Below are positions 37,665 to 61,935 of a DNA stretch of 64,000 nt, piece by piece (position 1 is the first letter of the stretch; each line of letters opens with the position of its first letter). Position numbers and translations under genes: made by a program. The notes beneath the pieces are model-generated. The model saw only the letters and a list, made by a program, of their open reading frames with translations, made no database searches and was not told the origin of the DNA. Source of the stretch: Oligoflexales bacterium (GTDB taxonomy: Bacteria; Bdellovibrionota_B; Oligoflexia; Oligoflexales; RGVZ01); contig CANLUT010000001.1 in assembly GCA_947494335.1 (NCBI GenBank), forward strand, positions 186,001-250,000. The letters are read 5' to 3'.

Positions 37665-37741
37665 GGGGTGGTAGTTAAGTTGGTTATAACGCCGCCCTGT
37701 CACGGCGGAGGCCGCGGGTTCGAGTCCCGTCCATCCCGCCA
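37665..37741 (+). tRNA. tRNA-Asp (GTC)
   Basis: A complete cloverleaf: 7-bp acceptor stem GGGGTGG/CCATCCC (one G-T pair), D stem GTTA/TAAC, anticodon stem CCGCC/GGCGG with loop CTGTCAC (anticodon GTC at 37699-37701), T arm with TTCGAGT, discriminator G and encoded CCA. It appears to be the insertion site of the element to the right. The 3' half is the expected attachment sequence, so a partial copy should exist at the far end, outside the window. Confidence 0.95.
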
Positions 37742-37760
37742 TTTTTCCAAAGTCAAAAGT

Positions 37761-42499: not shown

Positions 42500-42502
42500 T
42501 GC

Positions 42503-45466: not shown

Positions 45467-45482
45467 TGAGACTTAAGTCTCA
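45467..45482. promoter_or_regulatory. perfect 16-bp palindrome TGAGACTTAAGTCTCA
   Basis: A fully symmetric site in the 322-bp gap between the divergent methyltransferase and the sensory operon. Its half-site TGAGACT recurs at 45542-45548 (inverted) and in a cluster at 52670-52829. It is probably a transcription-factor operator. The rest of the gap holds the promoter at 45529-45558 and no other gene. Confidence 0.75.
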
Positions 45483-45528: not shown

Positions 45529-45558
45529 TTGACACTATATAAGTCTCACGGGTATGAA
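45529..45558 (+). promoter_or_regulatory. promoter with embedded AGTCTCA half-site
   Basis: TTGACA (45529-45534) and TATGAA (45553-45558) are 18 bp apart, ahead of the lipocalin-like gene. AGTCTCA at 45542-45548 lies between the two boxes, so a protein bound there would block RNA polymerase. Confidence 0.5.
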
Positions 45559-45587: not shown

Positions 45588-45974
45588 ATGAAGTCTTTAT
45601 ACTGCGGTACTTGGGCGCTTGAGGCTTTCACAATTGTTCACCCTGAGAAGGGTAAGCGCGAGTGGGGTGCGAACCTCAGAGGTCTGCTTGTTTATTCATC
45701 AACGGGCCATGTCAGCGTTGCGATCAATAAAGACATCAAAGAGTCCGGTAATCCGGACAAAGACATCCTGGACGCCATGCTGTTTTACGCGGGCACTTTC
45801 GAAGTCTCAGGTAAGACCATCAGTCACAACGTGACGATTGCTTCGAGTCCTGCCCGCGTCGGACGCGAAATGATTCGTTACGCAAGCCTTGATGGTGATG
45901 TTCTGACCTTAACAACCCCAGAAGAATCTTACGGCAGGGCTACGCTCGTTTGGCGACGACTTGGAGGTGCTTAA
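45588..45974 (+). CDS. lipocalin-like domain protein
   Basis: A 128-residue protein beginning MKSLYCGTWALEAF, with LLVYSSTGHVSVAINKD and LTLTTPEESYGRATLVWRR, the pattern of single-domain lipocalin-like (Lipocalin_5) proteins that bind small hydrophobic ligands. The ATG at 45588 has AAGGAGG upstream; an earlier in-frame ATG at 45561 lacks a site. There is no signal peptide, so it is probably cytoplasmic. Its stop shares a base with the next start (TAATG), which makes it the first gene of the sensory operon. The ligand is unknown. Confidence 0.75.
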   Translation: MKSLYCGTWALEAFTIVHPEKGKREWGANLRGLLVYSSTGHVSVAINKDIKESGNPDKDILDAMLFYAGTFEVSGKTISHNVTIASSPARVGREMIRYASLDGDVLTLTTPEESYGRATLVWRRLGGA

Positions 45975-47122
45975 TGCGTCGGTACGTTTTGTCCGCTCTC
46001 CCGATCATTTTTGCGCTCCCCGTATTCGCAGAGTCTCCTGCAACTAATCTAACGACTGTAAAAGTTTCGTTTATTGAAGCCTTGGACCCTAAAGACACCA
46101 CCTCGTCACAGAGGTTTCAGGAAGAGTATGAAAGGGCCATTGATACTGGCCGCGAGCTCACAGAAAAGCGGCTAGCTTCTTGCGGATACGCATTGAAGAC
46201 CGAAACGTCGTTCTATGGAGCCAGTGATCCGATCAAAGCTAAGGAAAGCGGCGAAAAGGCTGCGAGTAACCAAGCTTGGCTAATCGTCGGACCTCGTCGA
46301 AGCAATCACTATGTGTTGCTGGCTAAGGGCGCACAAGAAACTCCCGCAGTCAGCCTAATGGCAAGTTCGGACTCCTTAAGCGAGCTCGAGCCGCTGCATA
46401 TCTCACTTGCTCCATCAAATTCTGTGATGGCTGCAACTGCCGTCCGCGAGGCGAAAAAGCAGGCCAAAGGCAAGACTTCGTATGTCTCATTTCTGGCGAG
46501 TGAATGTTTGAATTGTAGGGACTTCGCAGCGGCTTTTGAAAAGTCGGCTGAAACGATCGGTCTTAAGAAGAAAGCCGAAGTTTCACTTGTGGGTGACCGG
46601 CCTGACGTCGCCCAGCTTGTTGAAGTGATCAAGAAACACAAACCATCGTTTGTATTACTTCCCAATTACTCGATTCTCTCAAGCTATGTGGTTTCTAAAC
46701 TTGCCCCGGTTGCTCCTAGTGTCTTTTTTGTTGGGTCAGATGGCTGGGGTGATGCCAAGTTTGGGTTTGTACAAAATGGGCCCGATATTTCACGTGCTCG
46801 TGGATTTTCTGTTCGTGGAAATCCACCTGTCTCCGAGGGCCTAAAAGGGTTTGATTTAGGAAAGCGGCTGATTGCAACTGGCGACGCATCCAAATTAGGT
46901 AGCAGCTCATCACTAGCAATTCTCCGGGTCTTTGATGGGCTGGAAAAAAGCCTCTGCCGTTCAAAACCCCAGGGCCTTGAAGCCTTCGCCAAGCATTTTG
47001 CTATCAATGGCTCGCGCGATTTTTCAAATCCATGGGGTGTTAGCATTTACGAGATTCGCTCGGGTGAAATGACTTTTGCTCGTTCAAGCAAGATCCAAAG
47101 CCGAGGAACCGCTAAACAATGA
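45974..47122 (+). CDS. periplasmic substrate-binding protein (type 1 fold)
   Basis: A 382-residue exported protein with signal peptide MRRYVLSALPIIFALPVFA. The body resembles the branched-chain amino-acid/urea type binding proteins: VIVGPR-like WLIVGPRRSNHYVLL, a switch region PAVSLMASSDSLSE, and the second lobe KTSYVSFLASECLNCRDFAAAF and HKPSFVLLPNYSILS. No transporter permease or ATPase is nearby. It overlaps the kinase gene by 4 bp, so it probably presents a ligand to that kinase and is not an uptake component (inference). Confidence 0.78.
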   Translation: MRRYVLSALPIIFALPVFAESPATNLTTVKVSFIEALDPKDTTSSQRFQEEYERAIDTGRELTEKRLASCGYALKTETSFYGASDPIKAKESGEKAASNQAWLIVGPRRSNHYVLLAKGAQETPAVSLMASSDSLSELEPLHISLAPSNSVMAATAVREAKKQAKGKTSYVSFLASECLNCRDFAAAFEKSAETIGLKKKAEVSLVGDRPDVAQLVEVIKKHKPSFVLLPNYSILSSYVVSKLAPVAPSVFFVGSDGWGDAKFGFVQNGPDISRARGFSVRGNPPVSEGLKGFDLGKRLIATGDASKLGSSSSLAILRVFDGLEKSLCRSKPQGLEAFAKHFAINGSRDFSNPWGVSIYEIRSGEMTFARSSKIQSRGTAKQ

Positions 47123-48480
47123 CTAAAGCCCCGCAACCAAGATCGCTTCGGAAGCTGGTGACCCTGTCGTGGGTTGTGCCGGCTATTTTTGCGTTTATGG
47201 CGAGTGGTTTGGTTTTTGGTTTGTTGGCATTTGTGGATTTTAGAGCCGACCAGGAAGCAGTTATCCAGAATCTTTCTAAGTCTTGTGAGATGGTATCTCG
47301 CAGGGTGGCGGCGGAAGTTCTTCTAGGTCAAAATGGCCGGGTTGCCGAGGTTCTAGAGAATCTTCGCGATAATCTGAAGCTCGAAAATGCATGGCTGTCC
47401 GAATATCGGCCAAGCTGCCCGTCGTCGTCCGAAAATGGGACGTGCGTAGTGACCAAGGGTCAAAGTGTAGTGGTTTTTCATCAGGTTGGTCACGTCGATC
47501 GGCCAATTTGGGTCGGGGTTCAGGCTAGTGCTAGGCATCTGTCGGATTTCTTTAATTGGACCATTTTCGCATGGAGTGCTGTTCCAGTTTTCGCAGCCTT
47601 TGGTCTTGGTCTTTATTTCCAGCAACGGCTCATCAACAAATTCGTGATAACTCCCATCTATTCGCTGGTAAGCTTGGCAGAATCTAAAGCCGAAATACCG
47701 GAGGATTGGCCATCAGAGCTACGGTCGATTGCTAAGTCTCTAGGTGATTCGTTTCAGGCGCGCGAGGACGCAGTATTTGCGATGCTTGCCCGAGGAGTGA
47801 TCCATGACATCAAGACATGGATCCATAGCCTTATGACAGCAACAGAGCTAGCCAACGAAGCCGAGAGTCTTCCACCTGAGCAGAGACAGGCGCGACTCGA
47901 AAAGCTACTCAAGGCTAGTAACACCCAGCTTCCAAAAGTTAGGACGACCATTGAGCGAGCTCTCGAAAGTGGCCGAGATCTGGACGTTTCGCCAAATTCG
48001 TCAAATCTCGCCCAGACGATCGAACACTCTCTCGATGCTCTTGAAGCCGTTGCTTCAGAGAAGGGTGTCATGATTAAAAGGCCGGCATCCCTGGGGGATC
48101 AGCAGTTAGAACATGACGCGGAGCATCTTGAGCGTGCGATTTCAAACGTCCTAAAAAACGCTATAGAGGCCGCTTGTATCTCAGATAACAAATCCAAGGA
48201 TCATCCGACCGTCTTTGTATCTACTGCGATTGGGTCGCGCAATTTTGAGATTTGCATTGAAGATTCCGGAAAGGGCATATCAGTCTCTCCTCAGGAATTA
48301 CTGAAGCCTACTCGCTCCACCAAAAAGGACGGGTCCGGGCTAGGTCTTTATCTGGCCAACAAGATTGTCCGTAGTCACCGTGGGGCAATTTTAATCGGCA
48401 AATCCGAATCCCTTGGTGGTGCAAAGTTTACGATTTCTATACCAAAATCTTCGAGCAGCCTCGGGGGTGCACCATGCTGA
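47119..48480 (+). CDS. membrane sensor histidine kinase
   Basis: A 453-residue kinase. Two membrane helices (about 17-40 and 147-168) bracket a ~105-residue periplasmic domain with a possible Cys pair (Cys100, Cys109). The H-box is VIHDIKTW with His229; the N-box AISNVLKNAIEAA, EDSGKGIS and GSGLGLYLANKIV complete the ATPase domain. No classical HAMP domain is seen. It lies between the binding protein and the NtrC-type regulator, overlapping both, so the three form one signalling unit. Confidence 0.9.
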   Translation: MTKAPQPRSLRKLVTLSWVVPAIFAFMASGLVFGLLAFVDFRADQEAVIQNLSKSCEMVSRRVAAEVLLGQNGRVAEVLENLRDNLKLENAWLSEYRPSCPSSSENGTCVVTKGQSVVVFHQVGHVDRPIWVGVQASARHLSDFFNWTIFAWSAVPVFAAFGLGLYFQQRLINKFVITPIYSLVSLAESKAEIPEDWPSELRSIAKSLGDSFQAREDAVFAMLARGVIHDIKTWIHSLMTATELANEAESLPPEQRQARLEKLLKASNTQLPKVRTTIERALESGRDLDVSPNSSNLAQTIEHSLDALEAVASEKGVMIKRPASLGDQQLEHDAEHLERAISNVLKNAIEAACISDNKSKDHPTVFVSTAIGSRNFEICIEDSGKGISVSPQELLKPTRSTKKDGSGLGLYLANKIVRSHRGAILIGKSESLGGAKFTISIPKSSSSLGGAPC

Positions 48481-49859
48481 ACGCAAGGAAGCCAAAAATC
48501 CTCGTTTTGGATGACGATCAAGTATGGCTGGAGCAAATCCCAGAGGTTTTGGGCGCTGAGCTGGATTGCGATTGCTACGAAACGATCGACCAGGGGATAG
48601 AAGCCATAGAAAAGCATTTCTACGATGTGGTTTTGCTCGACCTTAATTTTGCTGGCGATGAACGGACGGGACTAGACGTTTTCCGTCGAATCCATGCTGC
48701 TGACGTCCAAGCTGACGTGATCGTTATTAGTGGTGAGACCGATCACAGGCGCATCATTGAAATATTTAATGCCGGCGTGACCAGGTTCATTCCAAAGATG
48801 TCGCCCTTGTCTGAAATTCGTCAGGCCGTTGCAGATACGCTTCATGAGCGCGAGACAAGATTTCGCGCCTCAAAGCATCTTTTGGAAAGTGCTAGAGTGC
48901 CGCTTATTGGTAACTCACCCAAGATGCAAATCTTGCGCGAAGAAATTGCGTCGCTAGTCAATTCTGGCGTCAGGGACGTATTAGTGCAGGGAGAGACTGG
49001 TACGGGTAAGGAGCTGGTTGCCAAAGCAATCGCATATCAAGCCGACCCGGCCAAGAGGCTTGTGGTCGTTCATTGCGGTGCGATTAGCGAAGGACTGGCT
49101 GAGTCGGAGTTCTTTGGTCATGTAAAAGGCGCATTTACTGGCGCGGACCGGGATAAGGTTGGAGCATTCGAGGCAGCAGCCGGAGGCTTTGTTTTCCTAG
49201 ATGAGATTGGTGAATTACCACTATCCCAGCAGCCAAAACTGCTGAGGGTATTACAAGAAAGAACGCTACAGCGCGTCGGTACTCACGACGAAAAAAAGGT
49301 CAACTTCCGATGCGTTGCCGCCACACACGTAAACCTAGAGGAAGCGGTGAAGGCTGGGAAGTTTCGGGAAGATCTTTACTATCGCATAGCAAAGACGGTG
49401 GTTCGGATTCCTGCCCTCCGTGAACGTCCTGAGGACATTCCTGAGCTGGTTTACTACTTCCTAGGCCAGATCTCGGGCGGCAAAAAGAAGTCTCTGACCC
49501 CGGAAGCAATGTCGATACTTCAGACTTATAACTGGCCTGGCAACGTAAGGCAGCTTAAGGCCGTAATCGAGGGTGTGGTTGCCAAGTGCGAAGAGAATAC
49601 AATCCGCGAAAAAGACATCTGCCGCGCACTGCCCGAGGCGGCAGCGTTCAATACTTCGGTAGCTCGTTCAGTTGTCGGTGCTTACGGTACTTCGCTAATC
49701 ATGAGCGAGCGCCAACGGTTTGAGAAGGCGATCATCAAATGCCGAGGCAACCGCGATGAGGCGGCTAAGGCTCTTGGGCTGTCTAGGGCGACGTTTTTTA
49801 GGCGTGCGAAGGATTTGGGTTTGGTTAAAACTAGGTCCATTCACCAAATCGAAAACTGA
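48474..49859 (+). CDS. NtrC-family sigma54-dependent response regulator
   Basis: A 461-residue activator with a receiver domain (acidic pocket DDD at 13-15, phosphoacceptor Asp56), an AAA+ domain with Walker A GETGTGKE (173-180), the sigma54-contact loop GAFTGA (219-224) and Walker B FVFLDEIGEL, and a Fis-type helix-turn-helix at the end (KALGLSRATFFRRAKDLG). All activation motifs are intact. Such proteins bind palindromes 70-150 bp upstream of -24/-12 promoters. The TGAGACT sites at 45467 and 52670-52717 are natural candidates (inference). Confidence 0.93.
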   Translation: MLNARKPKILVLDDDQVWLEQIPEVLGAELDCDCYETIDQGIEAIEKHFYDVVLLDLNFAGDERTGLDVFRRIHAADVQADVIVISGETDHRRIIEIFNAGVTRFIPKMSPLSEIRQAVADTLHERETRFRASKHLLESARVPLIGNSPKMQILREEIASLVNSGVRDVLVQGETGTGKELVAKAIAYQADPAKRLVVVHCGAISEGLAESEFFGHVKGAFTGADRDKVGAFEAAAGGFVFLDEIGELPLSQQPKLLRVLQERTLQRVGTHDEKKVNFRCVAATHVNLEEAVKAGKFREDLYYRIAKTVVRIPALRERPEDIPELVYYFLGQISGGKKKSLTPEAMSILQTYNWPGNVRQLKAVIEGVVAKCEENTIREKDICRALPEAAAFNTSVARSVVGAYGTSLIMSERQRFEKAIIKCRGNRDEAAKALGLSRATFFRRAKDLGLVKTRSIHQIEN

Positions 49860-50088: not shown

Positions 50089-52359
50089 ATGGGCAGAGAT
50101 GCCAGGCAAACTCTCGGCAAGCAAGTCGTAAGCACTCTGCTGATGGCGCTTGTCGTCTCATTTGCTAGTTGTCAAAATGCCAATGGTACTGGTGGCGCTG
50201 GCGCATCTGCTTCATGGACTGTGGAGCAGCTTGGTAGCGCTCAGTCAAATTGCTCAAACACAGCATCGAAAGTCAACTCTGCTGTGTCCAGTCGCGATGC
50301 GATCTTAATTTGCGGATGTGTCATCGAAGAGGCTTCAAAGAAGTGGCCTTATGACGATTTTGTGAAAAACGAATTTGCATACACTGAAGCAATGTCAAAG
50401 GATGGGACCTTCGAAAGGTGTCGTCAAAGAGCCTCCGCTGCAGCGGGAGGGGGTACTTCGACATCTGAATCAAGCACATCGACATCGGAATCAAACACAT
50501 CGACATCGGGATCGACATCAGGCGGTGCTTCGCCAGACACAACCCTGCCGGTAATTATTTTGTCTGGCTATCCGACTGGAACGAACCGGAATTCCGATCT
50601 AAATATTACGGTCAGTGGTGCAACTTCTTATCGTTATAAGGTTGGACCGGCATCGACCACGGACTGTTCGGCATCTGTTGACTATAGTGCTGAGCGATTG
50701 GTCTCAGTTCCAATTACAGATAGTGTCTTAGCACAACAGGATGGATTACTAAGAGTGTGTGCAATTGGAAAAAATTCTCTAGGTTGGCAGACGTTCGTCA
50801 ATTCGACGGGTTTCTCATGGACGAAAGATTTTACCTCACCAAGCGCGCCTACGAGTGTCAGTGTCACTTCTACGGGTCCGACCTCACAAATAGTTTCCTG
50901 GTCAGGACCAAACTTGGCAAACGGCGATTACTACATTGTGGTCAAAAAGCAAACAACACCTTCCTCATGGGCACTTTCTTCTGGTGTCACGTACAACATG
51001 AGTCAAACTGATGGCTTCGGCTCATCTATAATTTACATTGGCACGGGGACATCATTCACTGATTTAAATTTAGTGACGGATAATTTGTATCATTATTCTG
51101 TTTTTACCTCAGATAGCTTGAAAAATATTTCCGCGGCGCGGACTGGATCTGGAATGCCGGTGAGGTCATGGACACAGTCCTCTTTAGTCGGGGAACAAGG
51201 CGTGTTGCCTTTCGAAACTAGTGGTTACCAAGAGTTGCCTAAGGCAGCTGCTGATGATAATGGGAATGTGATAGTTGCTTGGCTTCGTTCAAATTCTTCT
51301 CGTCACGTGGTTGCTAACGTCTTCAGTAACGCTACCGGTTGGGGTAGCCCGCTCACTCTGGAATCCGATTCACAAAATTCCTATGTCCCCCGCGTTGTAA
51401 TGAATACTGTAGGCCAAGGGGCAGTTCTATGGGCCCAGAACAATACAGTGAAAGCCCGTCGTTATAGTGCAGGTTGGGGGCCAACTGAGACGGTTGGAAC
51501 TTATTCAATTACATCCTATGAATTGGAGTCCGCAATTGATAGCTCCGGCAATATCGTAACTATTTTCCCCTCTGGCAATTCTATGGTTGCTAGTAGATAC
51601 CGTCCGGGAGTTGGTTGGTCTGGTAATGAAATTCTAAAAAATCACAGTGAGACCCCAACTGGTGGACTTGCCACCGCAGACGGGCTAGGCGGCTTTATGG
51701 CCATATGGATGTCCGGAGGTCAACCTTACTTCTCGAGATATTCTCAGTCGTGGACAGCCGGGGCAATGATACCTATTTCAGCCATGAACCTGAAAAGTGT
51801 TAAGTGTGATGCAGCTGGAAACTGCTTGGTAATTTACATCAAATGGGATGGACACGTTGAAAGCATCGCCTCAGCCAAGATATCCGCCCAAAACGGATGG
51901 ACGGACCATGGACTTCTAGAATCCGACATTACATATCCTGTTTTTGCTTCAATTTCTCCATTAGCAGTAAACGCCGATGGATCTGCGACTGCAGTATGGA
52001 TGCAAAAGTACAATTGCTGCAATTACGGTATGTTCTCTGCTAGGTATACTTCTGCCACTGGTTGGTCAACAAGATCGATGATCGAATCAGTAAATCACGA
52101 CACTGGAGTTGCGCCATTTGTGCATGGTTATGGGGCTGGGAATGCAATTGCTGCATGGCAGGGTGGTAGTACGAATAACACTTACGACACTGGCCGCTCC
52201 GCGAGATACATTTCTGGACAAGGATGGACTGATGTGACTGCGATGGGAGAATCGGACTTTGCAAAGCCGTACTTTATCGCCGACGGATTGGGTAATGGAA
52301 TATTTTTCTTTATACGTGTCAACGTATTCGATTTCAAGGCTACCCGATACTTTCCTTAG
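50089..52359 (+). CDS. large surface lipoprotein with Fn3-like and propeller-like repeats
   Basis: A 756-residue protein with a lipoprotein signal (LLMALVVSFASC, Cys28). A small Cys-containing N-domain (CGCVIEEASKKWPYDDF) follows, then a Ser/Thr-rich linker of TSTSES repeats (about 120-145), an Fn3-like domain (SAPTSVSVTSTGPTSQIVSW), and six or seven repeats with A/V-x-W cores (VIVAWLRS, GAVLWAQN, FMAIWMSG, ATAVWMQK, AIAAWQGG), suggesting a beta-propeller. It precedes the conjugation genes, so a role in cell contact is plausible but unproven. Confidence 0.72.
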   Translation: MGRDARQTLGKQVVSTLLMALVVSFASCQNANGTGGAGASASWTVEQLGSAQSNCSNTASKVNSAVSSRDAILICGCVIEEASKKWPYDDFVKNEFAYTEAMSKDGTFERCRQRASAAAGGGTSTSESSTSTSESNTSTSGSTSGGASPDTTLPVIILSGYPTGTNRNSDLNITVSGATSYRYKVGPASTTDCSASVDYSAERLVSVPITDSVLAQQDGLLRVCAIGKNSLGWQTFVNSTGFSWTKDFTSPSAPTSVSVTSTGPTSQIVSWSGPNLANGDYYIVVKKQTTPSSWALSSGVTYNMSQTDGFGSSIIYIGTGTSFTDLNLVTDNLYHYSVFTSDSLKNISAARTGSGMPVRSWTQSSLVGEQGVLPFETSGYQELPKAAADDNGNVIVAWLRSNSSRHVVANVFSNATGWGSPLTLESDSQNSYVPRVVMNTVGQGAVLWAQNNTVKARRYSAGWGPTETVGTYSITSYELESAIDSSGNIVTIFPSGNSMVASRYRPGVGWSGNEILKNHSETPTGGLATADGLGGFMAIWMSGGQPYFSRYSQSWTAGAMIPISAMNLKSVKCDAAGNCLVIYIKWDGHVESIASAKISAQNGWTDHGLLESDITYPVFASISPLAVNADGSATAVWMQKYNCCNYGMFSARYTSATGWSTRSMIESVNHDTGVAPFVHGYGAGNAIAAWQGGSTNNTYDTGRSARYISGQGWTDVTAMGESDFAKPYFIADGLGNGIFFFIRVNVFDFKATRYFP

Positions 52360-52669: not shown

Positions 52670-52717
52670 TGAGACTCCCATGTGAGACTCCGTGAGACTG
52701 AGTCTCAAATTGAGACT
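52670..52717 (+). promoter_or_regulatory. TGAGACT repeat cluster (probable activator sites)
   Basis: TGAGACT occurs at 52670, 52683, 52693 and 52711 on the plus strand, and AGTCTCA at 52701. The 52693-52707 pair forms a perfect inverted repeat around one G. Centres fall roughly on a 10-bp phase. The cluster lies about 70-115 bp upstream of the sigma54-like promoter at 52783, the usual distance for NtrC-type enhancers. Confidence 0.75.
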
Positions 52718-52782
52718 CGACCTATCAGACATATTGTCCACAAAAATAGCTAGTTAGAAAAATCGCCTCTTTTCGTGCAGGT

Positions 52783-52797
52783 TGGCACGGCCTTGCA
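52783..52797 (+). promoter_or_regulatory. sigma54-like -24/-12 promoter of conjugation operon
   Basis: The site reads TTGGCACGGCCTTGCA. Both boxes match the sigma54 consensus (TGGCACG and TTGC), but only 3 bp separate them instead of 4, so GG and GC are one base closer than ideal. It lies 54 bp before the first strong start codon of the conjugation region. Confidence 0.5.
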
Positions 52798-52812
52798 ACT
52801 ACCTCTTTAAGA

Positions 52813-52829
52813 TCTCAAATCGTGAGACT
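52813..52829. promoter_or_regulatory. TCTCA-N5-TGAGACT site downstream of promoter
   Basis: An inverted repeat TCTCA/TGAGA containing another TGAGACT at 52823, just past the predicted transcription start (about 52808). A protein bound here would repress or tune the same promoter. Confidence 0.5.
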
Positions 52830-52850: not shown

Positions 52851-53045
52851 ATGGCATTTCTATCGTGCCCACGCTGCACAGAATCCGGCTACCAGATATT
52901 TGCAACTCACGCTTACTGCGTGGGCTGCAATTATAGCCCGGACTTCGACCCAGGGATGAAACCCAAACGTCTCAGAACAAATAAACTTAACGCACTGCCC
53001 ACTTGGGCAAGGAGGGATCGATGCGTCGGATCTGTAATGCCATAG
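52851..53045 (+). CDS. 64-residue zinc-ribbon protein
   Basis: A small protein with paired cysteine knuckles CPRC and CVGC (residues 6-9 and 24-27), a zinc ribbon, followed by a basic tail. The ATG at 52851 has the strong site GAGGAGGTGG; a longer frame starting at 52782 would begin inside the sigma54-like promoter and was rejected. As first gene after the promoter it may be a regulator or nucleic-acid-binding accessory. It overlaps the next small ORF. Confidence 0.65.
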   Translation: MAFLSCPRCTESGYQIFATHAYCVGCNYSPDFDPGMKPKRLRTNKLNALPTWARRDRCVGSVMP

Positions 53046-53158
53046 TGACGTGGCTAAGCCGAGAACGGCGACGCAACTGGTGGGATCACATCGAAGAACG
53101 CGCGTATCGCAATGAATTCGGAAATCGAATTCTCTTTATGAGACAGGGACTGTTTTGA
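53021..53158 (+). CDS. 45-residue basic small protein
   Basis: A short ORF with a GGAGGG site 4 bp before its ATG, overlapping the end of the zinc-ribbon gene by 25 bp in another frame. The product is Arg- and Trp-rich (WLSRERRRNWWDHIEERAYR). The ribosome site and coupling favour a real gene. Function unknown. Confidence 0.45.
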   Translation: MRRICNAIVTWLSRERRRNWWDHIEERAYRNEFGNRILFMRQGLF

Positions 53159-53997: not shown

Positions 53998-54285
53998 ATG
54001 GAACAAGCTCTAAAACGTTATGTATTGCCAATTTTTGTAGTCAGCCTTGTGATGGGATCGTCGGTTGCCCTCGGAAGCGTCGAGGGAAGCCTGATGGCCA
54101 TGCAAACAAAGCTCATTAACGTCATTCTGCCGCTTGTTGGGATTTTGGGACTAGTGTTCGCGGCGTTTTCGTTTTTCCTTGGAAATCCGAACGCCAGGTC
54201 TCACTTGATCCTAGCCATTTTTGGGGCGGTTATCGGATTTGGTGCGCCAAGCATCATTGCGTTTATTCGTGGCATTGTGAACTAA
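53998..54285 (+). CDS. conjugative pilin, VirB2/TrbC-like
   Basis: A 95-residue precursor. The cleavable leader (VLPIFVVSLVMGSSVALG) is followed by two hydrophobic helices (LINVILPLVGILGLVFAAFSFFL and LILAIFGAVIGFGAPSIIAFI) separated by a short polar loop (GNPNARSH), the VirB2/TrbC layout. It should form the pilus shaft. The ribosome site is TTGGAGG. A GC-rich stem-loop follows directly and may protect the pilin message. Confidence 0.85.
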   Translation: MEQALKRYVLPIFVVSLVMGSSVALGSVEGSLMAMQTKLINVILPLVGILGLVFAAFSFFLGNPNARSHLILAIFGAVIGFGAPSIIAFIRGIVN

Positions 54286-54300
54286 GCTAACTGAGTGCCT

Positions 54301-54321
54301 GCGGCGCCGTTACGGCGTCGC
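54301..54321 (+). terminator. stem-loop between pilin and virB3-like genes
   Basis: A 9-bp stem GCGGCGCCG/CGGCGTCGC (one G-T pair) with a TTA loop, 16 bp past the pilin stop, followed by GGGCCGTCTTTTC. It may be an attenuator or mRNA 3'-end stabiliser and not a full terminator, since the operon continues. Confidence 0.6.
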
Positions 54322-54349
54322 GGGCCGTCTTTTCTCAATAGGAGGGTTC

Positions 54350-54655
54350 ATGCCTCTTAGAACTGTTCCGGTAAGTCGATGTCTGGACAAAAAACTCCAA
54401 ATCGCGGGGTTTGAGATTCCAGACCTATTGGCGGTTTTTTTCTTGCTCTCAATTTTGAATTTCATATTCGGCAAAACGGATCAAAAGCTCCTGCTTATTT
54501 GGTTCCCGTCACTTTTTGTTGCCGTTGTATTGCGAATTGCGAAGCGTGGTAAGCCCGAAAGTTATCTTGTCCATTTTGCTCGGTATCATCTTCGATCGCG
54601 TTCATTGTTTGCGTTTTATGAGCCAACTAAAAATCTATCCACCCCGAAAACGTGA
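54350..54655 (+). CDS. T4SS inner-membrane protein, VirB3/TraL-like
   Basis: A 101-residue protein with a hydrophobic pair (LLAVFFLLSILNFIFG and LLLIWFPSLFVAVVLRIA) after a short N-terminus, then a basic C-terminus. Size and position between the pilin and the VirB4 ATPase match VirB3/TraL. It has an AGGAGGG ribosome site. The identity relies on topology and gene order. Confidence 0.75.
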   Translation: MPLRTVPVSRCLDKKLQIAGFEIPDLLAVFFLLSILNFIFGKTDQKLLLIWFPSLFVAVVLRIAKRGKPESYLVHFARYHLRSRSLFAFYEPTKNLSTPKT

Positions 54656-54667
54656 GGTAAAACTAAT

Positions 54668-57079
54668 ATGAGAAGTGATCGCTTAAGTGATTATTTGGAT
54701 GTTTGGGGCATTGAAAATGACTCTGTAATCTTCCTGGATGGCGGTATTGGGACGGGATTTGAATTGGTTCCAATGGATCCATCCGCATTGTCGGACGATG
54801 CTTTGAATCAAACAGCGCACGACCTGACCAGTTTCCTTAATGGTTTGCCAAGTGGCATCCGCATTCAATTTGTCAGGGATGTGGTCCCAGCAAACGGTGA
54901 CGAGCTTGCACGGCACAAATGGTTGATTCACGAAAAAGCCGATCCAGTTGCGTGTACGCTGACTGATACCCGAGTTCGTGTCCTTCAGAGTCAGATTTCT
55001 GATGGCAATCTAAGGTCCCACCGCGTCTTCGTTTTTCTCAGAGTCCCTATGCCAAAACCCGCAGAGTTCTCTCTGATCAGTAGCATTCGTGGGTGTAGTG
55101 CTGATGATATTACCCGCGAATCTGTGGATCGTCACGTTGCGGAGACCGAGAGAGTCGCTGATGGAGTCGAAGCAGGCTTGCGCCAGCTTGGAATGAAACC
55201 AAGAAAGCTTGGCGCAAGGGAAATCATGGAGCTGACCTACAGGCAGTGGAATCCCGATCGGACATCTGAACTTCCGGAGTTTGATCCAGACAATGTCCGT
55301 GATTCCCTTGTGATGTCAGATGTAGAGATTGGGCGATCAGGATTTACCATTGGCGAGAGCTATTTTCGTGTTTTAAGCCTGAAACTACTTCCTGACCAGT
55401 CCTATAGCGCGATGGCGTCGGCTCTTGGGCGATTGCCATTTAACTCTCGAGCATTTGTTTCCATCTACGTCCCCGATCAAATAAAAGAGCTTGAAAGCCT
55501 ACAAACACAACGCCGGGTGGCCTATTCGATGGCGCACGGTAAACGGTCCGGAGTCTCGGACATAGATAGCACAGCCAAGTTCAATGACCTAGAGCGGCTC
55601 CTTGATCAAATGATTGCCAGCGGTGAACGGGTGTTTCACTTTGGCATCAATGTTCTCCTTAAGGCGCGCAGTGAAGACGATCTCCGCCAGCAGGTGGCGG
55701 AAACGCTCTCATTATTTCGCGAAATGGCGGGGTCGGAAGCCATGGAAGAATCCCTGGCGGCGTTTGATTTGTTTTCTCAAATGGCTATCCCAAATGCCCG
55801 GGTGACAGATCGTGTGAAGCGGATCAAGACTTCAAATTTGGCTGATCTCTTGCCTGTCTATGGACCTTGGCATGGTCATGAGATGCCCCGCGTGTTGCTT
55901 AAGACACGTGAGGGTACATCTCTGTCAATTGACCCATTTGATCCAAATATGACTAACGCGAATCAGCTGATTAGTGGCGCATCGGGCGCGGGAAAGTCGT
56001 TTCTAACAAACGTTCTTTTACTGAACATGTTGAAGGAGATGCCGCGAGTTTTCTTCGTTGATATTGGTGGTTCATATCGACGGCTTTGTGAAAACCTTGG
56101 CGGGCAATACATCAACTTAACGGCAGGGTCGGGCATTGTGTTAAATCCTTTTGATCTTCCCCCGGGTGAAACAGCTCCATCGCCATCAAAAATCAAATTC
56201 TTGCTTGGATTGATCGAGCTTATGACGAAAGAGCACGACCAGTCACAACTCCCGAGGCTTGCTCGGGCAGAAATTGAAAATGCCATTATCGAAACTTACC
56301 GTGTGAATCCAAGGCCGGTCTTATCCGATCTGCGGCGCATTTTGCTTAAAAACGAGGATCCCCAAGTTAAGGCATTTGGCCGGATCTTGGCTCCGTGGTG
56401 CGGTGACACGCCATTTGGGCAAATGATTGATCGGCCAACAACAGTAGATGTCCATCATGGGGCAATCGCTTTTGATTTGAAGGGCATGGAGTCTTATCCA
56501 GACCTTCAGGCGGTGTGTCTATTCATCATCACAGACTTGGTGTGGCGCGAGATTCAGAAAGATCGCAGTACCATGAAGTTCTTGGTTTTTGATGAGTGTT
56601 GGAAACTTCTAAAGTCAGACTCTGGTTTGGCCTTCATCGAGGAAGTGTTTCGAACGTTCAGGAAATACTACGCCTCGGCGATCGCGATTTCCCAGGACAT
56701 CGACGACTTTGCGAAAAGCAAAATCGCGGGTGCAATTCTTCCAAACTGTTCCCTTAAATGGCTACTTCTTCAACCGCAGGGCGATAAATCAAGGCTTAGA
56801 GATGTATTGGCCCTAAACGACAATGAGCTTGAACTTGTTTCGAGCCTGACCCAGGACAAGGGGCGTTACTCGGAGGCCTTTTTAATGGCTGGAGAAAACC
56901 GAATCGTAGCGGTGGTCGAGGCAACGCCTATGGAGCATTGGATCGCTACGACCGACCCGCGAGACCTAACAAAAATCGACGAGTTGATAACAGAGAATCC
57001 CAATAAATCGAGACTAGAAGTCTTACAGGCACTCGCCAATCAATATCCAAACGGCGTTACTGCCAGTTTAAGGGGGTAA
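54668..57079 (+). CDS. T4SS ATPase VirB4/TraC
   Basis: A 803-residue ATPase that drives pilus assembly and substrate transfer. Walker A is SGASGAGKSFLTN near residue 440, Walker B KFLVFDECWKLL near 640, then SAIAISQDIDDF and the C-terminal sensor region. The N-terminal ~400 residues are the CagE/TrbE-like domain that binds the membrane complex. Start at ATG 54668 with GAGGTAA upstream. It ends 3 bp before the VirB5/TrbJ-like gene. Confidence 0.93.
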   Translation: MRSDRLSDYLDVWGIENDSVIFLDGGIGTGFELVPMDPSALSDDALNQTAHDLTSFLNGLPSGIRIQFVRDVVPANGDELARHKWLIHEKADPVACTLTDTRVRVLQSQISDGNLRSHRVFVFLRVPMPKPAEFSLISSIRGCSADDITRESVDRHVAETERVADGVEAGLRQLGMKPRKLGAREIMELTYRQWNPDRTSELPEFDPDNVRDSLVMSDVEIGRSGFTIGESYFRVLSLKLLPDQSYSAMASALGRLPFNSRAFVSIYVPDQIKELESLQTQRRVAYSMAHGKRSGVSDIDSTAKFNDLERLLDQMIASGERVFHFGINVLLKARSEDDLRQQVAETLSLFREMAGSEAMEESLAAFDLFSQMAIPNARVTDRVKRIKTSNLADLLPVYGPWHGHEMPRVLLKTREGTSLSIDPFDPNMTNANQLISGASGAGKSFLTNVLLLNMLKEMPRVFFVDIGGSYRRLCENLGGQYINLTAGSGIVLNPFDLPPGETAPSPSKIKFLLGLIELMTKEHDQSQLPRLARAEIENAIIETYRVNPRPVLSDLRRILLKNEDPQVKAFGRILAPWCGDTPFGQMIDRPTTVDVHHGAIAFDLKGMESYPDLQAVCLFIITDLVWREIQKDRSTMKFLVFDECWKLLKSDSGLAFIEEVFRTFRKYYASAIAISQDIDDFAKSKIAGAILPNCSLKWLLLQPQGDKSRLRDVLALNDNELELVSSLTQDKGRYSEAFLMAGENRIVAVVEATPMEHWIATTDPRDLTKIDELITENPNKSRLEVLQALANQYPNGVTASLRG

Positions 57080-57082
57080 GGG

Positions 57083-57772
57083 GTGAGAAAGTCCATTATT
57101 GCATTCGCTTTGGTTATTTCCCTGATCATACCAGGACGGGCGGCGAAGGCTGACATTTGGGGAGGCGATGTGGTGGTCCTGACCCAGATACTTATGAACG
57201 CCGTTCAGCAGTTGATTCAGCTTCGTCAAATTCTGTCGACCGGGGAAGATAATCTAGCCCTACTTCAGGAGATTAACCGTGGGCTAAATGACATCTTGGG
57301 GATTGCAAAGACCAGCGGCGTCATTCGGGACAGTGGGGTATATGGTGAGATCTCCTCGGTTCATGACGGGAAGGAGATGCTGCGAGAGATCTATGGCCAG
57401 ATACCAGATAGCAGTGAGTCGAAGGTTCAAGACCATTCGGATCAAGTCATTTCGGAAGTCCTGACGCTGAATAATAGCATCTATCAGTACGCCAATGACA
57501 TTGACGCCATTGGGGAGGAGATCAAACAGGCAAGTGCTGTCGCATCTCCTAAGGGTGCGCAGCGACTGACAGTTGAATCCCTGGGAATCATGCTGACGGT
57601 AATGAACCAGTCGCTGAGAGCGCAAGCTAGTGGGTTGAAGCTCCAAGCTCAGGCAATGGCAGCTCAGAATCACAAAGACAAGCAATTTACCGATCAGGTC
57701 CGAAAGTCGTCTAAGAGCCTTCGGTTGGCGATGAGTGAGTCAAAAACATACTTTGAGATACCCAAGTTGTAG
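57083..57772 (+). CDS. T4SS protein, VirB5/TrbJ-like
   Basis: A 229-residue exported protein: signal peptide (SIIAFALVISLIIPGRAAKA), then IWGGDVVVLTQILMNAVQQLIQL and a long helical, Gln-rich body with a conserved-looking end (RQ/LRAQASGLKLQAQAMAAQNHKD). VirB5/TrbJ proteins are minor pilus components. The GTG start sits in a GGGGTGAG context right after virB4. The downstream gene in a standard order would be VirB6/TrbL, but an unrelated gene is inserted there. Confidence 0.78.
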   Translation: MRKSIIAFALVISLIIPGRAAKADIWGGDVVVLTQILMNAVQQLIQLRQILSTGEDNLALLQEINRGLNDILGIAKTSGVIRDSGVYGEISSVHDGKEMLREIYGQIPDSSESKVQDHSDQVISEVLTLNNSIYQYANDIDAIGEEIKQASAVASPKGAQRLTVESLGIMLTVMNQSLRAQASGLKLQAQAMAAQNHKDKQFTDQVRKSSKSLRLAMSESKTYFEIPKL

Positions 57773-57945
57773 ACATTACTTGCCATCGTGACAGGGGATT
57801 AAATCCTTATTACAATTAAAATGCTGAATTTGTGGTGGTTTCGGGTGTTCGCACTTGAGTTCTAGCGATAACATATTTCTAAATATTTAGTTGAAACGAC
57901 TTACTTAACTGAGCCGAATTGAAGTGGATTGGAATGAGCGGGATT

Positions 57946-59724
57946 ATGCAAAAGAAGTGGACAATTGAACATCTACAGGAGATTGCGGAAAAACATTCGG
58001 GGAAATGTTTGTCCAAAAGGTACCTGGGAACTAAATTTAAGCATAAGTTTCAATGTAAAAATGGGCATGTTTGGGAAGCAGTTGCGGGTTCAATTATTGC
58101 AGGAACGTGGTGTAGAGAATGTCATGCCCCAAAAAAGCTATCAATAAAAGTAGCGACTGAAGAGGCGTCAAAATTTGATGGGTTTTGTTTGTCACGATCC
58201 TACAAAAATGCACGATCGCCTCTAAAATGGAAATGCAGCCAGGGGCACGTTTGGCAAGCAAGTCTGGGGAGTGTCAGGGCTGGTCATTGGTGTAAAACCT
58301 GTTCAATGGGTTTTGGGGAAGAGATTTGCCGACAGTACTTTGAGCAGTTGTTTGACGATAAATTTCCAAAGCGCCGCCCATTATGGCTAGTAAATAAGCG
58401 CGGTAATAAGATGGAGTTGGACGGTTACTCCGAGAAGTGTGGAATTGCATTTGAATATCATGGGAGACAGCATTTTCAGGTTGGTTATTACACCAAAAAT
58501 ATATCCCAACTCCAAAGACGTCGTGAAGACGACAAGACCAGAAGAGAGCTGTGTAAAAAACGAAACATCTTACTAATAGAAGTTCCAGAAATTGGACGAT
58601 ATGTAGAGCTTGGCAAACTTGAAAAATATATCAGGAATCGTGCGCTCGCAGGCGGAAAGTTTCCAGTTAGCCAAAATGTGCAAATAGAACCGAAAACAAA
58701 ATCACTCCGTAATTGGACGAGGGAGCTATCAGAAATTGCAGAGAGTAAGCAGGGAAAGTTGCTATCCAAATCATTTCTTGGATGGCACGAAAATTTAACT
58801 TGGATGTGTCAGGAAGGCCACTCTTGGGATGCGACTCCGGCTAATATAAAACAGGGTAATTGGTGTGCAGTATGTGCGAATAGGGCGCGAAAGTCGATCT
58901 CTGAGATGAGCCTTCTTGCAAAGAAATATGGTGGAAAATGTCTTTCTAAGAACTACAAAAATAATAGAAAAAAGCTGAAATGGGAATGCGAGCATGGGCA
59001 TATGTGGTCTGCATCTTCGAAAGATATTCGCAGAGGGCGTTGGTGCGGGGAATGTAAAAAAATCGAAGACCATCGGCAAAGGAGTGTTCGATATTTGGAA
59101 GAGTTAAAGGTTATTGCTAAGGAACGAAAGGGGTTTTTACTCTCGGAGCATTACATTAACACAAAAACCCATTTGAGTTGGGAGTGTCACCTTGGACATA
59201 AATGGGAGGCTGTGCCATCAAGCGTTAAGGCAGGGAGGTGGTGCCCTATTTGTGCGAGGAAGAAACAAGCAGATTCACTTCGAGGAACACTCAATGAACT
59301 AAAGGAAATTGCTAAGAAGCGGAACGGAAAATGCTTGAGTAAAAACTATAAGAATCAGAACAGCCCTGTCAAATGGGAGTGCCATCTTGGACACAAATGG
59401 GATGCTGTGCCTTCAAGCGTTAAGGCAGGGACGTGGTGCCCTATTTGTGGCAGGAAGAAACAAGCAGATTCCCTTCGAGGGACGCTCAATGAACTAAAGG
59501 AAATTGCTAAGAAGCGGAACGGTAAATGCTTGAGTAAAATCTATAAGAATCAGAACAGCCATGTCAAATGGGAGTGTCATCTTGGACATAAATGGGAGGC
59601 CGTGCCCTCAAGTGTAAAAGCAGGGAAATGGTGCCCTATTTGTGCGAGGAAGAAACAAGCGGATTCACTGCGAGGCACAGGGGAAGAACTTAAGGTAATT
59701 GCTAGGAAGCGGAAAGGGAAATAG
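57946..59724 (+). CDS. zinc-ribbon repeat protein with Vsr-like nuclease domain, inserted in T4SS operon
   Basis: The protein has seven full ~65-residue units, each with a CLSK motif, GHxW and a paired Cys knuckle (for example WCPIC), like treble-clef/DUF4379-type repeats. After unit 2 there is a PD-(D/E)XK-type Vsr-like domain: GEEICRQYF, ELDGYSEKCGIAFEYHGRQHF (key Asp, Glu and His) and NILLIEVPEIG. Related proteins occur in phages and mobile DNA. The gene is more AT-rich than its neighbours and separates virB5 from virB6. Its 3' end has decayed, with a stop in unit 8. The start could also be 57934 (ATG) or 57919 (TTG). Confidence 0.78.
   Translation: MQKKWTIEHLQEIAEKHSGKCLSKRYLGTKFKHKFQCKNGHVWEAVAGSIIAGTWCRECHAPKKLSIKVATEEASKFDGFCLSRSYKNARSPLKWKCSQGHVWQASLGSVRAGHWCKTCSMGFGEEICRQYFEQLFDDKFPKRRPLWLVNKRGNKMELDGYSEKCGIAFEYHGRQHFQVGYYTKNISQLQRRREDDKTRRELCKKRNILLIEVPEIGRYVELGKLEKYIRNRALAGGKFPVSQNVQIEPKTKSLRNWTRELSEIAESKQGKLLSKSFLGWHENLTWMCQEGHSWDATPANIKQGNWCAVCANRARKSISEMSLLAKKYGGKCLSKNYKNNRKKLKWECEHGHMWSASSKDIRRGRWCGECKKIEDHRQRSVRYLEELKVIAKERKGFLLSEHYINTKTHLSWECHLGHKWEAVPSSVKAGRWCPICARKKQADSLRGTLNELKEIAKKRNGKCLSKNYKNQNSPVKWECHLGHKWDAVPSSVKAGTWCPICGRKKQADSLRGTLNELKEIAKKRNGKCLSKIYKNQNSHVKWECHLGHKWEAVPSSVKAGKWCPICARKKQADSLRGTGEELKVIARKRKGK
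59170..59690 (+). repeat. 195-bp tandem repeats in zinc-ribbon gene
   Basis: Units 5-7 of the zinc-ribbon gene are nearly identical at the DNA level with a period of exactly 195 bp (for example AATGAACT at 59293 and 59488). This shows recent in-frame duplication. Confidence 0.9.
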
Positions 59725-59958
59725 CTGGGTAAAACCTTTAAGAGTCAGAATACGCATGGCAAATGATTGTGTCAAAATGGACATCATTGGTCTGCTACTG
59801 CGGGTTCATTTGAACGTGGCAAGTGGTGTTCTCTGGAGAAGTGGCAGGGAAGTGTTGAACCACTAATTCGTCAGAAGATTTCTTATGTCGGGAGTGACCT
59901 TTTCGGTCTCTTAACTAGCGTCTCATTTTTTGAAAAAATTTACCCAATGGGTGATTGA
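59725..59958 (+). pseudogene. decayed C-terminal unit of the zinc-ribbon gene
   Basis: The same reading frame continues past the TAG at 59722 with recognisable repeat sequence (LGKTFKSQN, then CQNGHHWSATAGSFERGKWC), but contains a second stop (TGA at 59764) where other units have Trp. It ends at 59958. The C-terminus of the gene is therefore a degraded eighth unit. Confidence 0.75.
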
Positions 59959-59981
59959 GGTATTTTTTTGGGGGGGTGCTT

Positions 59982-60950
59982 ATGGAGACTTTTGGGCTTA
60001 CTAAGGAAGCAATAGTTCTACATGATGTTATTGCTTCCCTTTTTTTTTGCATTGCTGGCTTGGTGCTCGTCGTAGGAGTCGTCTGCGAGTACTTCAAGGC
60101 TCCAATTGGAGGCGTGCCGGCCTTTGGGCAGCTCTTGGGCCGAACTATCGTCGCCACAGTTCTACTCGTCAGTTACCCAGAGATCGCCAATGCGATTGCT
60201 GACGTTGCAAATTCCCTTGCATCAAAGCTCGGTGACTTAAATCAATATAAGGAGGTTTTAGATAAGGCTGGTTCGTCGCTAGAAAAGGTCTCATGGTCAT
60301 GGGGATCTGTGGGGGATGCGTTTGTCTTTGTGATTTCGTATCTCGCATTCTTCATTTTACACGTCACGGTCTATTTCTTCGATGCCGCGATCATCTATGC
60401 CTGGATGCTGCTATATATTTTTTCGCCCCTTCTCATTGTTTTATTTATACATCCGGTTACAGCTCCGGCCACGGGTGCGCTATTCCGGTCATTGTTTGAG
60501 GTGTCAGCGTGGAAGATTGTTTGGTCAGTCCTCGGGACGCTCCTATGGAGTTCCGCGGTCCACAATTTCGACCCGCAAAATGACAATCAGAATTTCATCA
60601 CTCAGCTAACGTTTACTATTATTCTTTCACTATCGGTTCTTTGCACTCCGATTGTAGTCAGGTCTCTACTAACGAAGGGTGTGGCAGGCTTGTCTGGAAC
60701 GCTTACAGGAGCAGCCGGGACGGCTCTAGTCGCCAGTGCAGCTGGTCCTGCGTCGATGTCCGCACTCGCCACGGCTCCAACCACTGTAGCCTTAACCGGT
60801 GCGCGTAAGGTAGCGACCATGCCCATTCAACGGGCCAAAGCGTACATTAAGGAACGGCGCAAAGAAGAAAGCCAATCCGGAGTCCCGCAAACGGTCGCAG
60901 AACATAAGCGCCGGCGTCTCAAAGGAACCAAATCGAACAAGGTTCTCTGA
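59982..60950 (+). CDS. T4SS polytopic membrane protein, VirB6/TrbL-like
   Basis: A 322-residue membrane protein with about six helices (IASLFFCIAGLVLVVGVV, VGDAFVFVISYLAFFILHVTVYFF, AAIIYAWMLLYIFSPLLIVLF and more), then an Ala/Gly-rich C-terminus and a basic end (RRRLKGTKSNK). The segment YIFSPLLIVLFI and the Trp-rich core WKIVWSVLGTLLW fit VirB6/TrbL channel proteins. I chose the ATG at 59982 (GGGGGGTG upstream) over a TTG at 59955 inside the decayed neighbour. Confidence 0.8.
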   Translation: METFGLTKEAIVLHDVIASLFFCIAGLVLVVGVVCEYFKAPIGGVPAFGQLLGRTIVATVLLVSYPEIANAIADVANSLASKLGDLNQYKEVLDKAGSSLEKVSWSWGSVGDAFVFVISYLAFFILHVTVYFFDAAIIYAWMLLYIFSPLLIVLFIHPVTAPATGALFRSLFEVSAWKIVWSVLGTLLWSSAVHNFDPQNDNQNFITQLTFTIILSLSVLCTPIVVRSLLTKGVAGLSGTLTGAAGTALVASAAGPASMSALATAPTTVALTGARKVATMPIQRAKAYIKERRKEESQSGVPQTVAEHKRRRLKGTKSNKVL

Positions 60951-60968
60951 TCAATTCGTAGGAGTTCT

Positions 60969-61520
60969 ATGAAATTTGCAGCCGTGTGGGCAGATATTGC
61001 CAATCAAAATGTATTACTTCGTCTCGTAATCGCGAGCCTCAGTCTCGTTCTTATCACGCTCTCTATCGTCACGACAAAACTGGCCATGAAAGAGCCGTTG
61101 GTAATCGAGAGGGAATGTCAGACACATTTAAGGCCGCAAGCCGGTTCCATGCAGTCACCCGAGGAGATTAAAGCCTTCGTTCGCGACGTTGTTGAAAGCA
61201 GGTTCACTTCTGGTGTCGCCCCAAGGCCCGAATGGATGGCTCCTGATCAGCTGCGGCAGAGGAAGATGGAGCAAGAAGAGCTGGAGAAGAAACGGCTTTC
61301 TCAAAGAGTGATCATAGACACGGTCGAGGTGTCGAAGTCAGGTATTCGTGTTGTTGGGGATCGAATGCTATCGGTTGGTAGGATTAGGTCAGCGTTTCCA
61401 TTTCTGATGGATGTGACGATTGAAACGACGTCCAGATCAGCTGCAAACCCTTACGGTCTCGTCTTGGCAAGAATTCAGCCTGTTATGGATGCTCAGAAGT
61501 CCGGAGGTGGCAATGAATAG
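60969..61520 (+). CDS. T4SS protein, TraE/VirB8-like
   Basis: A 183-residue protein with one N-terminal membrane helix (LRLVIASLSLVLITLSIVTT) and a periplasmic domain with a charged helix (QRKMEQEELEKKRLSQRV) and an NPYGL motif near the end, as seen in TraE-type VirB8 relatives. Position before VirB9- and VirB10-like genes supports it. It begins after a TAGGAG site and overlaps the next gene by 8 bp. Confidence 0.65.
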   Translation: MKFAAVWADIANQNVLLRLVIASLSLVLITLSIVTTKLAMKEPLVIERECQTHLRPQAGSMQSPEEIKAFVRDVVESRFTSGVAPRPEWMAPDQLRQRKMEQEELEKKRLSQRVIIDTVEVSKSGIRVVGDRMLSVGRIRSAFPFLMDVTIETTSRSAANPYGLVLARIQPVMDAQKSGGGNE

Positions 61521-61935
61521 GTGGCTTAAAATACCCTTTATCGTTTTGTGCGGGTGGTTTAGTCAGTCCGGTTTAGCGGACAGCTTTAAGACCGTTTATA
61601 TGTCTGATAATTCAGTGGCGCAGATTGCAGTATCGCCAAAAGGAATGGTTCTAAGTTTTCCAACAAAGCCTTCAAAAGTCATTCTAGGCAATGGATCTGC
61701 ATTTGGTGTCGAGTACGTGGAAAACGATATTGCATTGACTCCGGTGTCCGTCAGGTCTCGCGCAAATTTATTCGTCTATATGCTAGGGCGCAGATTTTCG
61801 TTTGATTTGGTAGCTTCGCCAAGTGCAGGGCATGCGGTTGTGATGGTTCGTGACCAGATCGAAACTCCTCCGACTCCTAAGCCTGAAAAGGTTTTGCAAA
61901 AGTTTGGGGGAAAATATGGTCGAGCAAAGCCCTGA
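61513..61935 (+). CDS. T4SS protein, short VirB9/TraK-like
   Basis: A 140-residue exported protein: signal peptide (MNRWLKIPFIVLCGWFSQSGLA) and a beta-rich N-domain (SVAQIAVSPKGMVLSFPTKPSKVILGN) with DLVASPSAGHAVVMV, as in VirB9/TraK N-domains. It lacks the usual C-terminal domain that pairs with VirB7 and the outer membrane, which is unusual. The ATG at 61513 overlaps the preceding gene; its end overlaps virB10 by 20 bp. Confidence 0.65.
   Translation: MNRWLKIPFIVLCGWFSQSGLADSFKTVYMSDNSVAQIAVSPKGMVLSFPTKPSKVILGNGSAFGVEYVENDIALTPVSVRSRANLFVYMLGRRFSFDLVASPSAGHAVVMVRDQIETPPTPKPEKVLQKFGGKYGRAKP

Follow-up and report, generated by a model that had tools for sequence, protein, structure and literature searches.

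A TGAGACT array and a sigma54-like promoter as a candidate ligand-controlled switch of conjugation in an ICE of the Oligoflexales

Gene content of the element

The window analysed here is a stretch of 64,000 nucleotides (C1:186001-250000) from the 3.34-Mb genome of an Oligoflexales bacterium; features beyond its end are given in extended coordinates, and related genomes and loci are referred to by handle (G and L, respectively). An ICE of about 30 kb is seated here in a tRNA-Asp gene (Table 1). The element possesses, in addition to the att repeats at the tRNA gene, a tyrosine integrase (int, extended coordinates 66963-68060) and an HTH_17 xis gene, both adjoining the attR repeat, as well as a VirB4 ATPase and a coupling ATPase (TraC/VirB4-like protein, VirB2-10 and an FtsK/SpoIIIE-like ATPase). 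Relatives of this T4SS retrieved by name carry the labels Bdellovibrionales, Bdellovibrio or Oligoflexia, with the exception of one MAG labelled Streptomyces griseus. Near attL, at 39369-45265, lies defence-like cargo that encompasses an MmeI-type restriction-modification protein, a helicase and a T5orf172/MUG113 protein.

The first gene of the T4SS operon encodes a small zinc-ribbon protein, and similar small cysteine-rich proteins likewise head the operon in L034, L022 and L023. The product of the inserted DUF4379 gene (601 aa) consists of repeated zinc-ribbon units, and both GC and AT skew jump at this gene. The end of the operon (extended coordinates 62813-65034, L007:813-3034) encodes the FtsK/SpoIIIE-like ATPase and a protein weakly resembling MobC/replication-relaxation proteins (the match of this 261-aa protein to NF041423, 1.2e-05, is below the cut-off); no recognisable relaxase was found among the genes searched. 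The same ATPase and MobC-like set is found again in many relatives (L022, L023, L024, L027, L029, L030 and L032). Three 35-bp direct repeats (GTCACTCAAGACC..AACATTGCCACTCAAAGC) spaced by 39-40 bp lie in the interval that separates the T4SS operon from the xis/int module (extended coordinates 65819-65932, L007:3819-3932) and are possibly an oriT or iterons.

Upstream of the T4SS operon, and separated from it by a cargo gene, lies an operon for which we propose a sensory function. In agreement with the preliminary description, which had pointed to an NtrC-family activator accompanied by a kinase and a periplasmic binding protein, domain searches recovered all three genes. The regulator matches PF00072 (2.7e-15), PF00158 (3.1e-59) and PF02954 (3.2e-06), a domain set compatible with sigma54-dependent activation, and the genome encodes one RpoN (PF04552, 1.2e-63). 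The binding protein produced a weak match to Peripla_BP_6, and its predicted model, which is of low confidence (pLDDT 60.6) and was used for fold class only, best resembles leucine-binding proteins; no ABC transporter genes lie beside its gene.

Table 1 Features of the element and its candidate regulatory sites
Feature	Position	Strand	Remarks
attL	37733..37748	+	16-bp repeat, 3' end of tRNA-Asp
16-bp palindrome TGAGACTTAAGTCTCA	45467..45482		upstream of sensor operon (lipocalin/binding protein/kinase/regulator)
sigma70-like promoter TTGACA-N18-TATGAA	45529..45558	+	sensor operon; read by eye
lipocalin-like small protein (PF13924)	45588..45974	+	
type I periplasmic binding protein (LivJ/LeuBP fold)	45950 or 45974..47122	+	proposed sensor
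membrane histidine kinase	47119..48480	+	ordinary type
NtrC-type response regulator	48474..49859	+	receiver (D56), AAA+ with GAFTGA, Fis-type HTH
756-aa secreted/lipoprotein-like protein	50089..52359	+	cargo slot
candidate upstream activating array, five TGAGACT half-sites	52670..52717		at -138, -125, -115, -107 (inverted) and -97 of predicted +1
perfect inverted repeat, 15 bp, TGAGACTGAGTCTCA	52693..52707		within array; identical 15-mer in G041
sigma54-type -24/-12 element TTGGCACG-GCC-TTGCA	52782..52797	+	GG-N9-GC; N3 spacing also in L034
predicted transcription start	52808	+	placed 12 nt past the -12 C
downstream TGAGACT(CA) half-site	52823..52829	+	at +15; kept at +15/+16 in G018 and G041
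zinc-ribbon small protein	52852..53046	+	first T4SS operon gene
virB2, B3, B4, B5, B6, B8, B9, B10	53998..62812	+	T4SS genes; virB4 at 54668-57079
DUF4379 gene	57919-59724		inserted between virB5 and virB6
attR	68144 (extended coordinate)		outside window; second copy of 16-bp repeat

Paired TGAGACT sites and the NtrC-type regulator

The preliminary description had reported five TGAGACT half-sites within 48 bp ahead of the T4SS operon, one pair of them forming a perfect inverted repeat, and a sixth further downstream. All of these are present as exact copies, at 52670, 52683, 52693, 52711 and 52823 on the forward strand and at 52701 on the reverse strand, and the inverted repeat spans 15 bp. 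In 60 Markov-simulated windows of 64 kb, any 7-mer reached at most 3 copies per 48 bp, compared with the five observed here, and the array is not a tandem repeat; these two checks rule out a chance cluster or tandem repeat. An origin of the cluster by coincidence or repeat expansion, devoid of a regulatory role, would accord with the shortness of the motif and with the near-background frequency of single half-sites in coding DNA, but given also the genome-wide uniqueness of the array and its position-exact conservation in a divergent ICE (see below), the probability of this explanation appears negligible.

A search of the whole 3.34-Mb genome for paired half-sites, counting those in direct orientation up to 20 bp apart and inverted ones up to 15 bp apart, detected only two locations, namely the array at the T4SS promoter and a perfect 16-bp palindrome at 45467-45482 that the preliminary description had missed; reversed-pattern controls yielded 0 paired sites across the genome. 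Paired sites are therefore confined, within this genome, to the two promoters of the proposed circuit. A chromosome-wide TGAGACT regulon was considered and ruled out because the genome contains no further paired sites.

The palindrome, a putative autoregulatory site of the regulator, is conserved upstream of the corresponding operons of two other genomes, as TGAGACTCAAGTCTCA in G018 and as TGAGACTATAGTCTCA in G024. Furthermore, an AGTCTCA half-site (45542-45548) falls between the -35 and -10 boxes of the sigma70-like promoter of the sensor operon, and G018 has AATCTCA at the matching offset. This promoter was not among the hits of a consensus sigma70 scan; its TTGACA box is found again downstream of the palindrome in both G018 and G024.

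Comparison across the phylum connects these sites with the regulator. Orthologues of the regulator (E<=1e-90) were detected in only 3 of the 56 genomes of the phylum (G000, G018 at 69% identity and G024 at 53%), and each of these genomes has TGAGACT-N2-AGTCTCA ahead of the operon that encodes the regulator. This 16-mer was found in only one additional genome, G017, where it was rejected as a regulator site because it lies within a 26-bp palindrome flanked by convergent genes and hence represents a terminator-like hairpin. The arithmetic probability that the three carriers would all fall among four random genomes is 53/367290 (about 1.4e-4). The HTH domain is nearly invariant among the three orthologues and different in other T4SS-linked regulators, and GAFTGA, GETGTGKE (GESGTGKE in G024), FLDEIGE and D56 are conserved across all three, as expected of a regulator competent for sigma54. 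Other T4SS relatives encode only distant NtrC-type proteins (about 40% identity or less over the full length), and none of those examined contains TGAGACT clusters. The link between TGAGACT sites and the regulator that had been put forward previously is thus upheld at the level of comparative genomics, by co-occurrence of orthologue and palindrome in 3 of 3 carriers and by recurrence of the array position in a divergent ICE.

The identity of the binding protein deserves separate consideration. Most members of the array are direct half-sites and NtrC-type proteins usually use dyads, which counts against the regulator. Conceivably, TGAGACT could instead be the operator of Xis, of the 127-aa relaxosome-like protein or of the MobC/Replic_Relax protein, and the array a repressor or relaxosome site: many ICEs possess dedicated repressors, a mixture of direct and inverted half-sites fits small dimeric DNA-binding proteins, and in G041 an array accompanies Xis and Replic_Relax genes where an orthologue of the regulator is lacking. 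However, homologues of the 127-aa protein and of Replic_Relax are encoded in L022, L023, L030 and L032, all of which are without TGAGACT clusters, so that binding by either protein is unlikely, and in G024 the sites go only with the regulator operon. We therefore regard the operator explanation as very improbable. G024 shares with the ICE the binding protein, the kinase and the regulator; neither this T4SS nor any other DNA-binding gene in common with the ICE was found in that genome, which leaves the regulator as the common factor.

The -24/-12 element and its counterparts in other genomes

The TGGCACG-N3-TTGC element of the preliminary description corresponds to TGGCACG-GCC-TTGCA at 52783-52797, and its caution that the spacing falls one base short of consensus (GG-N9-GC instead of GG-N10-GC) is justified. 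The start at 52808 follows from the position of the -12 box, being computed rather than mapped. Both boxes fully match the sigma54 promoter (TTGGCACG and TTGCA), and the spacing is N9 rather than N10 here, in L034 and in L023. Across the 56 genomes of the phylum, the counts of TTGGCACG-N(1-7)-TTGCW from N1 to N7 are 8, 13, 9, 50, 18, 11 and 17; only N4, equivalent to GG-N10-GC, is enriched, and N3, with 9 occurrences at background, is therefore no general alternative in the phylum. No precedent for an N9 sigma54 promoter was found in the literature searched, and work outside that search may exist.

A close counterpart is a divergent ICE in G018, with a VirB4 50% identical. Its contigs C22 (L098) and C103 (L034) appear to be joined via a gamma-glutamyltransferase-like gene, which occupies the cargo slot, and the order would then be the same as in the window: lipocalin, binding protein, kinase, regulator, cargo gene, array and T4SS operon. 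The two promoter regions have largely diverged apart from the sites and the -24/-12 block. The G018 sites are located at -139, -115, -97 and +16, compared with -138, -115, -97 and +15 in the window, with degraded TGAGACT copies at about -125 and -107, and the G018 element, TGGCACG-N3-TTGCAACTACC, is that of the window. N3 is retained although the spacer sequence differs; because it is conserved in this sister ICE, the short N9 spacing is not an error.

Single TGAGACT pairs occur elsewhere in the phylum and were followed there in G041, G024 and G018. In G041:C35 (L112:13180-15182), an array precedes orf152-Replic_Relax-xis-int. Over 48 nt, the sequence shares 96% identity with the array of the window, and the downstream genes differ; the sites lie at -115, -105, -97, -87 and +15, that is, the array has moved by exactly 10 bp, and the promoter is canonical (TTGGCATG-N4-TTGCA, spacer TCGC). 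In G024:C30 (L113:5861-7766), four direct copies of TGAGACTCGG follow one another at exact 10-bp steps with two more sites upstream, and this array, at -94 to -158 of TGGCACG-GCAA-TTGTA, precedes an operon of secreted proteins, with the regulator orthologue nearby. The shift by one helical turn in G041 together with the one-turn periodicity in G024 is the pattern that activation by looping would favour. The earlier reading of the cluster as an enhancer of a sigma54 promoter gains from these two loci, in which TGAGACT arrays stand before correctly spaced sigma54-type elements.

The main alternative is that the regulator binds TGAGACT and acts on a sigma70 promoter, perhaps as a repressor, with no sigma54 start at 52782. 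In its favour, sigma54 sites elsewhere in the phylum do not use N9 spacing, a sigma70-like match (TTGAGA-N16-TATTGT at 52710) overlaps the last site of the array, and the sensor operon likewise has a half-site within its sigma70-like promoter. However, sigma70-like matches in this region are not above chance, the match at 52710 is missing from the G018 promoter where TGGCACG-N3-TTGCAACTACC is among the few blocks conserved outside the sites, and G041 and G024 carry like arrays before N10 promoters. On balance, action through sigma70 seems unlikely to us, if clearly less so than the operator explanation.

In other sister ICEs, too, a sigma54-like promoter precedes this operon, and several of these promoters have dyads of their own 57-114 bp upstream. 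N10-type elements occupy the equivalent place in L031, L027 and L030 (with GA in place of GC in L030), and the dyads 57-89 bp upstream of them are each different. The spacing is canonical or near-canonical in G041, G024, L027 and L031. L023 has TTGGCCCA-TTC-TTGCAA (N3) 71 bp before the equivalent gene, and the odd spacings of L022 and L023 (7 and 9) indicate that the -24/-12 reading may be incomplete. The simplest reading of these comparisons is a family-wide sigma54 promoter of the T4SS operon, with some lineages tolerating or exploiting a short spacer. The dyads upstream of these T4SS promoters are TTTCAAAATGAAA, ATGTCCTAATTTTAGGACAT and AAAAGCCCATCTATGGGCTTTT, within L027:8130-8233, L031:16380-16526 and L030 (reverse strand) 577-691.

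A proposed circuit and its relation to known systems

We consider it quite probable, from the sequence comparisons described above, that the TGAGACT array is the enhancer of the NtrC-type regulator and that TTGGCACG-N3-TTGCA at 52782 is the sigma54 promoter that drives the T4SS operon. In the circuit that we infer (binding by the regulator, the phosphorelay, use of the N9 promoter and the signal itself), a ligand bound by the periplasmic binding protein would signal through the adjacent membrane kinase, and the phosphorylated regulator would gather on the 52670-52717 array, loop to the sigma54-RNA polymerase and open the promoter, such that the T4SS operon would be transcribed. The ICE would in this way assemble its transfer machinery only in response to the signal. 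The regulator would also bind the 45467 palindrome and the 45542 half-site in its own sigma70-like promoter, resulting in autoregulation that is probably negative; the half-site at +15 suggests a further role of the regulator there, perhaps as a brake or through an extra contact.

A broader generalisation, on which we are evenly divided, is that Bdellovibrionota harbour a family of ICEs in which sigma54, together with a ligand-sensing two-component system of the NtrC type that the element itself encodes, directly controls the whole T4SS operon through lineage-private enhancer motifs, that small mobilizable elements such as that of G041 copied the enhancer to time their excision by eavesdropping on the ICE regulator, and that the promoter of the present ICE operates with the conserved one-base-short spacing. 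If so, the conserved short -24/-12 spacing would make the ICE promoter unusually tight. The N9 promoter lends itself naturally to testing how strictly sigma54 depends on spacing. The literature searched does not describe T4SS operons under sigma54 control for ICEs of this phylum, and reports outside that search may exist. Triggers of conjugation are known for few ICEs, and none was found for the predatory bacteria of the Bdellovibrio group. In the present ICE, the entire switch, from sensor, kinase and activator to enhancer and promoter, is readable from sequence, and a trigger of this kind is therefore directly testable.

Among characterised ICEs, CTnDOT provides the nearest parallel, and its RteB is an NtrC-type response regulator. 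The RteA/RteB two-component system of CTnDOT works through RteC, so that here too an ICE-borne two-component system heads a cascade leading to excision and transfer upon an outside signal (PMC1976400). For a relative, the domains listed include Sigma54_activat and HTH_8 (PMC10865816). The signal of CTnDOT is tetracycline, and RteB activates rteC, whose product controls the excision and transfer genes, whereas in the window the array immediately precedes the T4SS operon and a periplasmic binding protein is included; the host phylum and the T4SS differ as well. With NtrC, ZraR and DctD the regulator shares the receiver, the GAFTGA-containing AAA+ domain and the Fis-type HTH, together with sites some 100-150 bp upstream of the -24/-12 element (PMC7057263). 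The ICE differs from these systems in its mostly direct half-sites, their one-turn spacing, the site at +15 and a T4SS promoter that is one base short.

A periplasmic binding protein and a membrane kinase upstream of a T4SS are also features of the ChvE-VirA-VirG system. In Agrobacterium, the periplasmic binding protein feeds the membrane kinase and switches on the vir T4SS, and VirG is of the OmpR type and acts with sigma70. In contrast to the ICE, this system involves neither sigma54 nor the autoregulatory palindrome.

The closest analogy for the G041 element is SGI1. The G041 element, a small integrative element lacking T4SS genes, is deduced from a contig end, the contig stopping inside int. 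Its Replic_Relax protein matches PF13814 (2.3e-11), and its xis and int products are 55-58% identical to those of the ICE over short stretches. Activator-type sites precede its own xis and mobilisation genes, and neither VirB4 (in a genome that is 90% complete), an orthologue of the regulator nor a helper element was found in G041; Replic_Relax relatives in four other genomes have no TGAGACT cluster and no sigma54-like site. The element is perhaps an SGI1-like eavesdropper on the ICE regulator. The xis promoter of SGI1 is bound by AcaCD of its helper, the IncC plasmids (PMC4605294), and in that case too a mobilizable island makes use of the master activator that serves a conjugative element, comparable to the array before Replic_Relax-xis-int in G041. 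AcaCD is of the FlhDC type, in contrast to the present regulator, and neither a sigma54 enhancer-binding protein nor a two-component regulator. That a small, unrelated element has the enhancer as well suggests regulatory parasitism, as between SGI1 and IncC, in another phylum and with another class of activator.
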